Shown one piece after another: positions 12,841-55,580 of a stretch of 64,000 nucleotides of DNA. Location of the stretch: the NCBI RefSeq assembly GCF_036172515.1, contig NZ_JAXKVW010000007.1:1-64000 (forward strand), written 5' to 3'. The notes below the pieces were generated by a model. That model did not search any database. It was given only the letters and a program-made list of their open reading frames with translations, and was not told the DNA's origin. Made by a program: the position numbers and the translations under genes. Source of the stretch: Flexistipes sp. GTDB taxonomy: Bacteria > Chrysiogenota > Deferribacteres > Deferribacterales > Flexistipitaceae. The number at the start of each line of letters is the position of its first letter. The first letter of the stretch is position 1.

Positions 12841-12966
12841 GGTAGAGAGGTAGTGAGGTGGGGAAAGTGATTTGTTGAGTAATATTTGTTAATTGTGAAA
12901 ACGGTTAGTACTTTTAATACTTCTACTACCCCTACTACCCCTACTACCCCTACTACCCCCTACTAC
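12841..12966. repeat. Low-complexity spacer with 9-base CTACTACCC tandem array, copy E
   Basis: The 126-base gap between convergent pckA and the phosphohexomutase gene begins with GAGGTAGTGAGGTGG-type units. A TTTGTTGAGTA-type stretch shared with 50638-50665 comes next. It ends with about 4.7 copies of CTACTACCC at 12923-12966, directly abutting the mutase stop codon. No terminator hairpin is evident. Confidence 0.75.
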
Positions 12967-16945: not shown

Positions 16946-16966
16946 ATGTATCAAGTTTATCTATGA
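16946..16966 (+). CDS. Six-codon leader ORF coupled to the EamA gene
   Basis: ATG at 16946 follows an ACGGGGA site by about five bases and reads MYQVYL before TGA at 16964-16966. The stop overlaps the EamA start as ATGA. The EamA ATG itself has no separate ribosome site, so translation may begin here and restart. An alternative is that this is chance in AT-rich DNA. Confidence 0.35.
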   Translation: MYQVYL

Positions 16967-17802
16967 CCGGTTTTCTTTTAATAATCTTTAGTGCACTTAT
17001 GCATTCTCTCTGGAATGTCATACTAAAGAAATCAAATAACAAGTATCTTTTTAACTACCAAATGCATTTTTTGAACTTCTGTATAATGACGTTTGCTTAT
17101 ATCGTTTTTTTCAGAGAATACATGTTTTTTGATTTACGGGCTGTGGTTCTTGCTTTTTGTGCAGCACTCTTTTTTACAGGATATCATCTTTTTTTATCAA
17201 CAAGCTACAGGTACGCAGATGCTTCCATGGTTTACCCCGTTACAACCTCCTCGCCGATATGGGTTGTATTATGGGCTGCTATATTTCTCCACGAAAAGAT
17301 TACTCTATTAGGCTTATTGGGAATCGTAATAACACTGGTGGGTGTATTGATTATTAACAGCTCAAAAACATCAGATATAAAACTTGATAAAGGAATAGTT
17401 TTTGCTTTTATATCGGCGTTTTTTTATTCTGTGGGAGCAATTGTGGATAAGGTTGGGGTGGATGTAGGTAATTTTATACTGTACGTTTATTCTTTAACTT
17501 TTTTTATGACATTTTTTATGTATATGTATTCTGCAAGGCGTTTTACCAATCATCTGGAACATTTTAAAGCTAATATCAGATATCTGCTTGCCGGGAGTAT
17601 CATTCTTTTTATGTCATTTTTTGTTTACAGGCTGGGACTTATTTTTGTTCAGGTTTCGTATGCAACGGCGCTGAGACAGGTGAATGCTCTGTTTGGCGTA
17701 CTTCTCGGAGTCTTATTTCTTAAAGAGAAATTTTCATATAAAAGGCTGGCCGGGTCAATTGTTATTATAGTAGGGATGTTGATATTAAGAGCTAATATGT
17801 AG
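16963..17802 (+). CDS. EamA/DMT-family transporter
   Basis: A 279-residue inner-membrane protein with about ten hydrophobic helices in two EamA repeats, residues ~1-135 and ~145-279. The repeats include the typical PVTTSSPIWVVLWAAIFLHEK and ATALRQVNALFGVLLGVLFLKEK ends, each closing in a short positive loop. The family exports or imports metabolites such as amino acids and sugars; the substrate cannot be told here. No ribosome site lies in front of the ATG, but a short upstream ORF overlaps it. It is divergent from gltA. Confidence 0.85.
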   Translation: MTGFLLIIFSALMHSLWNVILKKSNNKYLFNYQMHFLNFCIMTFAYIVFFREYMFFDLRAVVLAFCAALFFTGYHLFLSTSYRYADASMVYPVTTSSPIWVVLWAAIFLHEKITLLGLLGIVITLVGVLIINSSKTSDIKLDKGIVFAFISAFFYSVGAIVDKVGVDVGNFILYVYSLTFFMTFFMYMYSARRFTNHLEHFKANIRYLLAGSIILFMSFFVYRLGLIFVQVSYATALRQVNALFGVLLGVLFLKEKFSYKRLAGSIVIIVGMLILRANM

Positions 17803-18010
17803 TGAGGTGGTGGGGTGGTGAGATAGTGAGATAGGGAATTAGTGCTAAGTGTTAAGTGCTAAGTCACGCTGAACTTGAATGTAGAATTTATTTGCATTAC
17901 GTATCACGAGTTGCGCATATAAATACAAAAAAATTGGGAGGCCGCCAATTAAATAAACGTTCACTTGGTATGATTCTGTAAAAAAATGGGAGGGTGCCAA
18001 AAATAAATTG
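17803..18010 (+). repeat. Composite spacer repeat, copy A (best-preserved)
   Basis: This spacer after the EamA gene holds, in order, AGTGAGGTGG/GAGATAGT units and the block at 17830-17874 that is 44/45 identical to the reverse complement of 28471-28515. It continues with ACG-type heptamers, the 33-base block 17914-17946 that matches 50736-50768 at 27/33, and a second RGGAGGNNGCC at 17988-17998. No ORF or terminator was found. The rest of the 329-base gap up to 18131 is AT-rich and holds the lipoprotein promoter region. Confidence 0.85.
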
Positions 18011-18131
18011 GTTGAAGATTTATTATTATTTCATTATATTTTCTGAAAATTTTGAGTAGTTTTTTTCTATTAATAATAATATATTAAAATAATACAAAAT
18101 TAGGTTGTTTAAAAGTATAACGGAGGATTAT

Positions 18132-27925: not shown

Positions 27926-28034
27926 ATTATCCTCCTTTTTATATCAACTCATGTTTTATTTTTAACATAAGCTGTATGATATGTAAACAAGGTTTAAGGT
28001 CTGACGTCACCCCATTTTTCGCAGTGCAAATATT

Positions 28035-28344
28035 TTTCAATGTAATTTGCACGCATTTCGCAACCGAAACTCGAAACTACTGCCGCTAACCGTCTACTGG
28101 CACCAGCCGTAAGGCTGGTAAATATGTGGAACACATCCCCCTCCTCTCATAATTGTTTTTATTTGCAAATATTTATCCACTTTACATTCCAACACAGGGT
28201 GTGACCGCTAACCGGCAGTACGTTTCTCTAGCACCAGCCGAAAGGCTGGTATATATGTTGTATACACAAATTTATCGGTCTTTGACCGATGCTAGTGGAA
28301 CACATTCGACATCGGCTGCTTTATTTGTGCAAATTACATTGAAA
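28035..28344. mobile_element. MITE-like element with 18-bp perfect terminal inverted repeats and two GNRA-capped hairpins
   Basis: TTTCAATGTAATTTGCAC at 28035-28052 is exactly inverted at 28327-28344, and weaker similarity extends a further ~40 bases inward on both sides. Inside are two directly repeated hairpins, CCAGCC-GTAA-GGCTGG (about 28103) and CCAGCC-GAAA-GGCTGG (about 28235). A third perfect hairpin is TCGGTC-TTT-GACCGA (about 28274-28288), and CTAGCA/TGCTAG at 28229/28289 could close a multibranch around the last two. The 10-base direct repeat GGTTTAAGGT flanks the element at 27991 and 28410. No ORF. It occupies most of the 679-base gap 27926-28604. Confidence 0.6.
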
Positions 28345-28424
28345 TCAGTGTCATGTTAGCTAAGTATATGTAAAACAATACTTTTATATAATTTTTGGGG
28401 TTATGCCAGGGTTTAAGGTGACTT

Positions 28425-28545
28425 AATACCGTGATGCGTAATGAGTAATGCGTGATGTAATAAGTTCAACGTTCAGCGTGACTTAGCACTTAACACTTAG
28501 CACCAATTCCCTATCTCACCATTTCACTATCTATCTGAAATATTT
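28425..28545 (-). repeat. Composite spacer repeat, copy B (inverted relative to copy A)
   Basis: On the minus strand, 28515-28471 reproduces the 45-base block of copy A (17830-17874) with a single mismatch. It is preceded by GATAGTGAAATGGTGAGATAG-like units and followed by ACATCACGCATTACTC-type heptamers. So the module order is the same as in copy A. No coding potential. Confidence 0.85.
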
Positions 28546-28604
28546 GACAACTTCTTTTCTTGTATTGTTCTGATATTTAGAGTAAAATTCACAAAGGAGT
28601 GAAT

Positions 28605-42947: not shown

Positions 42948-43150
42948 CTTTTTGGGTAACGGATTTTGGTATATTGGTGTGTTAGTATTAAGCGTTAAGT
43001 GTTAAGTTTTAGATACTTTATTTCAGGGGCATAAAGCAAATAAGCACGAATAACGAAGAATAACAATAAGTAACCATTTACTTCTGCTAACGTTGAACCC
43101 TGAACTTCTAATACCTCCACCTCATGGATTACGCATCAAGGTTTTACTTT
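42948..43150. repeat. Heptamer-rich spacer, copy F
   Basis: This spacer contains TTAAGCG-TTAAGTG-TTAAGTT near 42985-43010, CGAATAA-CGAAGAA units near 43060, GAACCCTGAAC near 43095 and an ATTACGCATCA element near 43123. These are the same classes of short unit as in copies A-E, but more diverged. No terminator or ORF is seen. Confidence 0.55.
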
Positions 43151-43228
43151 TGGTAGCCAGCAATAAGACCTTGCAATGTTTTCTTATTTTGTATAAAAGT
43201 GTATCTCAAAAAGCCAAGAGAGTTATCC

Positions 43229-50479: not shown

Positions 50480-50543
50480 TTTTATCTGTAAGAAGTTACC
50501 GTTTTTATATAAAGGTTGATACTTTTTTTGGTGAATTGTAGAG

Positions 50544-50594
50544 AGGTAAAGGTAAAGGTAAAGGTAAAGGTAAAGGTAAAGGTAAAGGTAAAGG
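50544..50594. repeat. Hexanucleotide AGGTAA tandem array
   Basis: Eight perfect copies of AGGTAA plus a partial ninth lie 65 bases after acnA. The array reads without stops in some frames but belongs to no ORF with a start. Perfect short-unit arrays like this are prone to length change by slippage. Confidence 0.95.
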
Positions 50595-50775
50595 AAGAGA
50601 GAGTTAGGTAGTGAAGTGGTGAGATAGAGAAATGCTAATTTGTTGAGTAGTATATTTGTGTATTGGTTGATTGGGCATTTACGTTAAACCTTGAACTTTA
50701 AACATATCACATCACCCGTAACCCATAATGCATCACGCATATAAATGCGAAAATTTTGGGAGGATGCCTGCAGTG
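50595..50775 (+). repeat. Composite spacer repeat, copy C
   Basis: Modules run in the same order as in copy A: TAGTGAAGTGGTGAGATAG, a TTTGTTGAGTA stretch shared with copy E, AACCTTGAACTTTAAAC, CATCACGCAT heptamers, and the 33-base block 50736-50768 ending GGGAGGATGCC. No ORF. It fills the middle of the 473-base gap 50480-50952. Confidence 0.8.
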
Positions 50776-54389: not shown

Positions 54390-55580
54390 ATGGGCTTTTT
54401 TGATGTTTTCAAAAGAAAAAAGCGTGAAGAAAAAGATAAGGAAAACATTCGGGATGATGACGAAGAAGTAATAGAGGAAGAAGAACAGGAAGAAACTGGT
54501 GAGAGTGAGAGTGTGAGTGACAGTGAGAGTGACAGTGAGAGTGAGAGTGAGAGTGAGAGTGGAAGTGAAAAGGAAGGTCAAATAGAAGAATCTGCTGGAG
54601 ATGAGAAGGACGACAAAAGCGGCAGGAAAGAAGATAAGGAAAAAAAATCAGGTGTTTTCGGAAGGCTGAAAAAGGGGATATCCAAAACTTCGGGAAGAAT
54701 AATCGGTGGAATGGAAACGATTTTTCTCGGCAAGAAAGAAATCGATGAAGAACTTTTGGATGAGCTGGAGGAGCTTTTTGTCACTTCAGATATCGGTGTT
54801 TCCACTACGATGAAAATAATAGATGACCTCAGAAGCGATGTGAGCAGAAAAATTCTAAAAAATCCCCAGGAATTGAAAAACGCCTTAAAAAAGAAACTTA
54901 CAGAAATACTGGATATAGATAATGAGCTTGTGAAAACGGATGATAAGCCTTATGTCATACTTGTAACCGGAGTTAACGGGGCCGGAAAAACGACGAGTAT
55001 TGCAAAACTGGCAAAAATGTTTAAAGAAAACGGTATGAGCGTTATGCTCGCCGCGGGGGATACATTTAGGGCTGCAGCAATTGAGCAGCTTGAAATATGG
55101 GGTGAGCGTGCAGGCGTTCCTGTGGTAAAACAGAAAGCAGGAAGTGATTCGGCAGCTGTAGTTTATGATGCGGTTCTTTCGGCCAAATCCAAAAAAATTG
55201 ACGTGGTAATAGCCGATACTGCGGGAAGACTACACACTAAAGATAATCTTATGAATGAATTGAAAAAAATCAGCAGAGTTGTAAAAAAAGAGATGCCTGA
55301 TGCACCCCATGAGGTTCTGCTGGTTTTGGATGCCACAAGTGGTCAGAATGCCGTTGCCCAGGCCAAAACCTTTGGCACAGAAATCGGTGTTACCGGAGTG
55401 ATACTTACGAAACTTGACGGAACAGCCAAAGGAGGGGTTATCGTAGGTATCGTTGATGAAATGCAGCTTCCGGTAAAATTTATAGGTTTCGGTGAAAGCA
55501 TGGATGATTTGAAACCTTTTGATGCCGGAGAATTTGTTGAAGCTTTATTTGAGTCCGCTGATGAAACTGATTACAGCTGA
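54390..55580 (+). CDS. ftsY: Signal recognition particle receptor FtsY
   Basis: A 396-residue SRP receptor GTPase that docks ribosomes making membrane proteins. The first ~90 residues are extremely acidic: Asp/Glu runs and then a Ser-Glu/Ser-Asp repeat coded by an AGTGAG-type hexamer array. The NG domain follows. G1 is TGVNGAGKTT near 192-201, G3 is DTAGR, G4 is TKLDG, and the conserved GDTFRAAAIEQL segment is present. FtsY commonly has an acidic A-domain, but this repeat is unusual. It is preceded by smc and overlaps the next gene by 20 bases. Confidence 0.95.
   Translation: MGFFDVFKRKKREEKDKENIRDDDEEVIEEEEQEETGESESVSDSESDSESESESESGSEKEGQIEESAGDEKDDKSGRKEDKEKKSGVFGRLKKGISKTSGRIIGGMETIFLGKKEIDEELLDELEELFVTSDIGVSTTMKIIDDLRSDVSRKILKNPQELKNALKKKLTEILDIDNELVKTDDKPYVILVTGVNGAGKTTSIAKLAKMFKENGMSVMLAAGDTFRAAAIEQLEIWGERAGVPVVKQKAGSDSAAVVYDAVLSAKSKKIDVVIADTAGRLHTKDNLMNELKKISRVVKKEMPDAPHEVLLVLDATSGQNAVAQAKTFGTEIGVTGVILTKLDGTAKGGVIVGIVDEMQLPVKFIGFGESMDDLKPFDAGEFVEALFESADETDYS
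54499..54562 (+). repeat. In-frame GAGAGT/GACAGT hexamer array inside ftsY
   Basis: About ten to eleven near-perfect six-base units (GTGAGA, with GTGTGA and GTGACA variants) encode alternating Ser-Glu/Ser-Asp at about residues 37-57. Because the unit is six bases, gain or loss of units keeps the frame. Confidence 0.9.

Follow-up and report, generated by a model that had tools for sequence, protein, structure and literature searches.

The BOX elements of Streptococcus pneumoniae are composed of modules in the order boxA-boxB(n)-boxC (PMC3049150). The BrickBuilt MITE of Porphyromonas gingivalis is a tandem minisatellite within a MITE, possesses leader and tail ends, and is always intergenic (PMC4596501). 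Arrays of heptamers are represented by the STRR repeats of cyanobacteria, the GGGAATC and GGGGAYT arrays of Xanthomonas and Nostoc, and the TAACTGA arrays of Beggiatoaceae (PMC4692102, PMC4679880).

The repeat family described here was recognized in a window of 64,000 nucleotides from Flexistipes sp. (contig NZ_JAXKVW010000007.1, positions 1 to 64,000). It resembles BOX in being an intergenic composite of modules in fixed order, with distinct ends and a tandem middle whose copy number varies, and also in its inferred mobilization in trans and apparent dormancy. The middle of the Flexistipes element, however, consists of several words of 6-9 bp, whereas that of BOX is one module of ~45 bp; the Flexistipes element has no stable RNA fold, and the ends and the host differ. 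The comparison is one of architecture only: the family works like BOX but is not classed as BOX. With BrickBuilt it shares a MITE-like design, in which a tandem array is combined with leader and tail ends in intergenic position. BrickBuilt has one 23-nt unit and is represented by 19 copies, while Flexistipes has many ordered short words in an estimated ~170 array spacers per genome (extrapolated from 562 kb), most of them, unlike BrickBuilt, without recognizable ends. The features shared with STRR and other heptamer arrays are degenerate 7-bp tandem units, a dispersed intergenic distribution, 7-nt steps between relatives, proximity to the 5' neighbouring gene on the G-rich strand, and a patchy occurrence across phyla. 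Unlike STRR, Flexistipes also employs units of 6, 8, and 9 bp. The published arrays are mostly single words, generally without mobile elements, whereas the Flexistipes words are concatenated and have TIR-like ends. The preliminary description of the window called the family uncharacterized, and the searched literature indeed gave no published description; the repeat-related passages of the F. sinusarabici genome paper (PMC3236037) do not describe the arrays. As far as this literature shows, elements with IS ends in which many short words are strictly concatenated seem to be new.

The repeated block and its family

The 45-bp block at 17830-17874 (plus strand) and its inverted counterpart at 28515-28471 (minus strand) differ at exactly one base (44/45), as first reported. 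A match of this length with one mismatch is far above chance expectation in 64 kb, and the likeness extends into the flanks to 63 bp at 94% identity. Both blocks lie within intergenic spacers (17803-18104 for copy 1 and 27926-28604 for copy 2), and no other copies in the genome resemble each other as closely. Copy 1 is preceded by an EamA-type transporter gene (16963-17802) and followed by a DUF3568 gene; copy 2 is flanked by genes for a zinc-binding dehydrogenase and an AI-2E transporter.

Copy 1 opens with an octamer array (GTGARRTR)n at 17803-17834 on the plus strand, which starts at the stop codon of the EamA-type gene and exceeds its F. sinusarabici counterpart by two units (16 bp). The same strand carries the heptamer array (GTGYTAA)3 at 17842-17863, CATTACG-type heptamers at 17895-17908 (sequence, module scan), and the TIR-like right end of the element, AAAAAAATTGGGAGGCCGCCAA, at 17908-17948 (profile match of 29.2 bits). 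Adjacent to it, at 17949-18000 on the minus strand, is a 52-bp end remnant of a 1.43-kb IS, which matches the IS left end GGCACCCTCCCATTTTTT...CATACCAAGTGAACGTTTATTTAA and is multi-copy in F. sinusarabici. In copy 2 (28430-28535, minus strand), octamers, (GTGYTAA)3, NTTGAAC, and CATYACG follow each other in the order of copy 1; its right end was not recognized.

Further copies are located on the plus strand of the window. These include CATTACG heptamers with a right end (168-217); octamers with a GTAATTTGTTGA-like module and (CTACTACCC)n (12841-12966); a copy with an AATAAC-rich core (42970-43160); and a copy composed of (AGGTAA)8.5, octamers, a GTAATTTGTTGA-like module, NTTGAAC, CATCACG, and a right end (50540-50768). 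A separate multi-copy repeat of ~415 bp adjoins copy 2 at 28008-28422. It has the ends CTGACGTCACCCC...GGGGTTATGCCAG and a likely target duplication, GGTTTAAGGT. Dozens of full or partial matches to this repeat occur in F. sinusarabici, which lacks it at the copy 2 site, where a short CTGACGTAATG footprint remains, and has a relative of it at the copy 1 site.

Genome-wide, GTGYTAAGTGYTAAG occurs 89 times in 2.47 Mb with at most one mismatch, while the reversed control gave 0 matches. For CATTACG, the reversed control carried no information, since reversing the motif gives the same array shifted by one base. The arrays are degenerate tandem repeats of 6-9-base words: GTGARRTR (8), GTGYTAA, NTTGAAC, and CATYACG (7 each), GTTGARNNN (9), AGGTAA (6), and CTACTACCC and GGGTATTAT (9). 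Nearly all of them are intergenic; this was the case for the octamer, GTGYTAA, NTTGAAC, and CATYACG arrays at 23/23, 28/28, 9/9, and 12/12 sampled sites, respectively. Looser patterns gave a few matches inside genes, mostly to the GTTGARNNN pattern. One GTGAGA-type hexamer array, at 54499-54561, lies in a coding gene and encodes a segment rich in Ser/Glu/Asp close to the N-terminus of a putative FtsY protein. Arrays were present in 39 of 204 spacers of at least 60 bp within 562 kb sampled, i.e., ~69 per Mb.

The preliminary description was also correct about the common order of short modules, which extends through the genome. In 27 spacers with at least two modules, these follow one another along one strand in a nearly constant order, with words picked by eye, spacers oriented by majority strand, and words on both strands in 8 spacers. 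For example, CATYACG follows NTTGAAC in 7:0 cases and NTTGAAC follows octamers in 7:0; both orders were found only for octamers relative to GTGYTAA and to AGGTAA. Seven to eight copies also have in common a longer core around ACGAATAACNAAGAATAACAATAAATAAC. The elements are ~150-450 bp in size and non-coding. The suggested interspersed intergenic family with internal order is confirmed by dozens of copies. There was no Rfam match at the gathering score in the window, and RNA folding gave no signal (mean z -0.23); accordingly, an RNA element was rejected.

Element ends and a candidate carrier

Some array copies carry the left end CCTCCCATTTTTTTAATARCTATGCC and some the right end TATAAATGTGTAAATTTTGGGAGGNTGCCAA. 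On the word strand, 8 of 63 array spacers contained a right end, compared with 0 of 99 other spacers. In profile searches, array-type left ends were followed by octamers in 13/13 cases and array-type right ends stood after the expected words in 14/14; 3 and 6 seeds, respectively, and several orthologous pairs are among these. A recognizable end is present in only about one-fifth of the array spacers. The left end is an imperfect inverted repeat of the right end. The sole copy in which both were found, C1:107875-108158, has degenerate ends, and a clear target duplication was not seen there.

The full plan of the element would comprise, in its 5' part, the left end CCTCCCATTTTTTTAATARCTATGCC, (GTGARRTR)n, a GTAATTTGTTGA/GTGTATTG module, (GTGYTAA)n, and an optional core. 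In the 3' part, (GTTGARNNN)n or (AGGTAA)n would be followed by (NTTGAAC)n, CTACTACCC/AATTACCTC, (CATYACG)n, and the right end TATAAATGTGTAAATTTTGGGAGGNTGCCAA. In many copies, one or more of these modules are missing.

About 20 terminal bases, TTGGCANCCTCCCAWWWTTT, are common to the array ends, a MITE, and the 1.43-kb IS. Clear target site duplications (TSDs) of 8-10 bp accompany the MITE, TAAAAGACTG and CAAGAGCA among them, and likewise flank the IS in five of seven F. sinusarabici copies. The IS encodes a DDE protein of 421 aa, which matched no Pfam family and gave weak matches, under the curated cut-off, to IS4-family models. The earlier remark that the family has no visible transposase holds for the genome of the window, in whose draft sequence this IS was not found save for end remnants such as that of 52 bp beside copy 1. 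The ends of the element, however, match the terminal repeats of this IS, of which the sister species F. sinusarabici possesses seven intact copies.

Comparison of array spacers with those of the sister genome revealed no array copy that combined two intact ends with a TSD and an empty site. A 399-bp block at C2 205140 that is missing in F. sinusarabici is bordered by microhomology, with no TSD. The array family is MITE-like, not a proven MITE.

An IS110-family element was also considered as the mobilizer and rejected, as one copy simply sits within a MITE. Seven intact IS110-family copies are present in F. sinusarabici; the six that were compared share the downstream boundary TTTAACACGGAACAT, unlike the ends of the array elements. 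This boundary adjoins palindromic repeats of the GAGCGAAGC type.

Comparison with the sister species

Matched stretches of the window's genome and that of F. sinusarabici are mostly 91-96% identical and colinear over the compared blocks; the source of the window is a sister species of F. sinusarabici. Both window copies are present at orthologous sites in F. sinusarabici, and the pair therefore predates the split of the two species, contrary to the recent copying initially proposed. The 10.6 kb separating the copies are colinear in F. sinusarabici, which rules out an inversion between them.

At the same spacers, the sisters often differ by whole units: by 16 bp (two octamers) at copy 1 and, elsewhere, by 7, 8, 9, 14, and 21 bp. 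One 42-bp (7 x 6) expansion involves AGAGGC units that changed to AGAGGT. Under a strict tandem criterion, 6 of the 92 spacer indels of at least 5 bp qualify; whole-unit indels beyond these were judged by eye, and the remaining indels are unrelated. Gains and losses of larger blocks occurred between direct repeats of the words themselves (C2 197510), and blocks were swapped between the sisters at C1 96395 and 114765. Array change between the sisters is slippage, not strong selection.

Selection had been the second explanation offered for the conserved blocks, but excess conservation of the words was not seen. Substitutions amount to 6.8% in words vs 4.6% in array-free spacers, and gaps are commoner in array spacers than in array-free ones. 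Since the words are not better conserved and no RNA fold was found, sequence-specific selection is not needed.

Origin of the arrays

We favour, with a probability of about 0.58, the explanation that the 45-bp block forms the central part of modular, non-autonomous elements of a MITE-like family, whose copies spread in trans and now change by slippage and deletion. A DDE (IS4-like) transposase would have recognized the ~20-bp terminal repeat TTGGCANCCTCCCAWWWTTT and spread the copies in trans; we infer transposition of the array elements from the ends that they share with the IS. The copies are probably immobile in the window's genome because the source IS was not found there except for end remnants. 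Such copies would change only as 6-9-nt units slip during replication, as stretches between direct repeats are deleted, and as the ends decay. Loops formed by units of 6-9 nt are too large for MutS-type repair. No host function would be needed, and the position just 3' of stop codons would reflect where insertion and expansion are tolerated. Several observations count against this proposal: recognizable ends are scarce, the one copy with both ends is degenerate there and has no clear target duplication, no array copy with a TSD and an empty site was seen in the compared spacers, the 13/13 and 14/14 counts contain seeds and orthologous pairs, the match of the transposase to IS4 models is weak, below the cut-off, and the heptamer arrays of other phyla have no such ends.

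A possible, though doubtful, alternative is that STRR-type arrays arose in place by slippage and that recombination or gene conversion between short arrays then carried them from spacer to spacer, the ends being coincidental neighbours of a minority. It is consistent with the lack of a recognizable end in most array spacers, with the whole-unit changes, block swaps, and direct-repeat deletions at fixed sites, and with the fact that published heptamer arrays are generally not tied to mobile elements (PMC4692102). The GTGYTAA word itself also occurs in unrelated phyla with the same polarity. Among the matches listed, the 5' side of the array is the one nearer to a gene at 64 of 84 loci of other bacteria (p about 2e-6), as it is for 23 of 26 arrays in the genome of the window; the 84 loci were obtained in a single scan of a GTDB collection, several of them from the same genomes, and are not all independent. 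The same 5'-side polarity has been reported for the GGGAATC and GGGGAYT heptamers of Xanthomonas and Nostoc (PMC4692102). What points instead to copying of whole elements is the fixed order of multiple modules, together with the common longer core and the ends that stand strictly next to the expected words.

Tentatively, and with rather low confidence, the recurrence of this word with the same polarity in unrelated phyla may be taken to mean a general process that seeds or extends 7-bp arrays directionally from gene ends, with Flexistipes as its extreme multi-word form. A word list common across phyla was rejected: NTTGAAC, as a second word, turned up in no more than 3 of the 13 genomes with arrays, a Deferribacteraceae relative included. 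Desulfonema magnum has no NTTGAAC arrays and Desulfobacterales HSG2 has a few; the reversed heptamer CAAGTTN occurs in hundreds in the former and in dozens in the latter. Each genome therefore has its own vocabulary. The reversed control CAAGTTNCAAGTTNCAAGTT, with 589 matches in D. magnum and 79 in HSG2, represents another heptamer array family. In one Chloroflexi genome, Anaerolineae AQU-02, many spacers contain GTGCTAAG arrays with the reverse complement a short distance behind; these are hairpin-like, unlike the unstructured Flexistipes arrays.

Maintenance by selection as host-functional 3' elements, for example as unstructured G-rich transcript tails with a C-rich antisense that serves as a Rho-type site, or as stops in all frames after genes, is improbable. 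The composite does read in gene direction in 30 of 40 spacers between co-directional genes, the sense strand of array spacers is G-rich after gene ends (skew +0.32 vs 0.00), and the arrays start at a median of ~20 nt after the stop codon. On the other hand, divergence of the words equals or exceeds that of the remaining spacer DNA, gaps are commoner, an RNA fold is lacking, the arrays are absent from most genomes of the order, and the genes around array spacers are functionally unrelated to one another. Finally, the idea that one spacer block was duplicated just once, recently or by chance, which the uniquely close likeness of the pair might suggest, can be dismissed as extremely improbable in view of the 89 GTGYTAAGTGYTAAG matches, the dozens of related copies in the same order, the common ends, and the occurrence of the pair at orthologous positions in F. 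sinusarabici.

The 44/45 identity between the two spacers is, in this case, the sign of an old, widespread family and not of a recent event. The family joins two topics that are usually kept apart, dispersed heptamer repeats of unexplained origin and MITE-like composites. The two Flexistipes species offer a tractable case, one sister having an intact candidate IS and the other apparently none, and pose the question of whether short tandem arrays may be carried by transposition and then reshaped by slippage.
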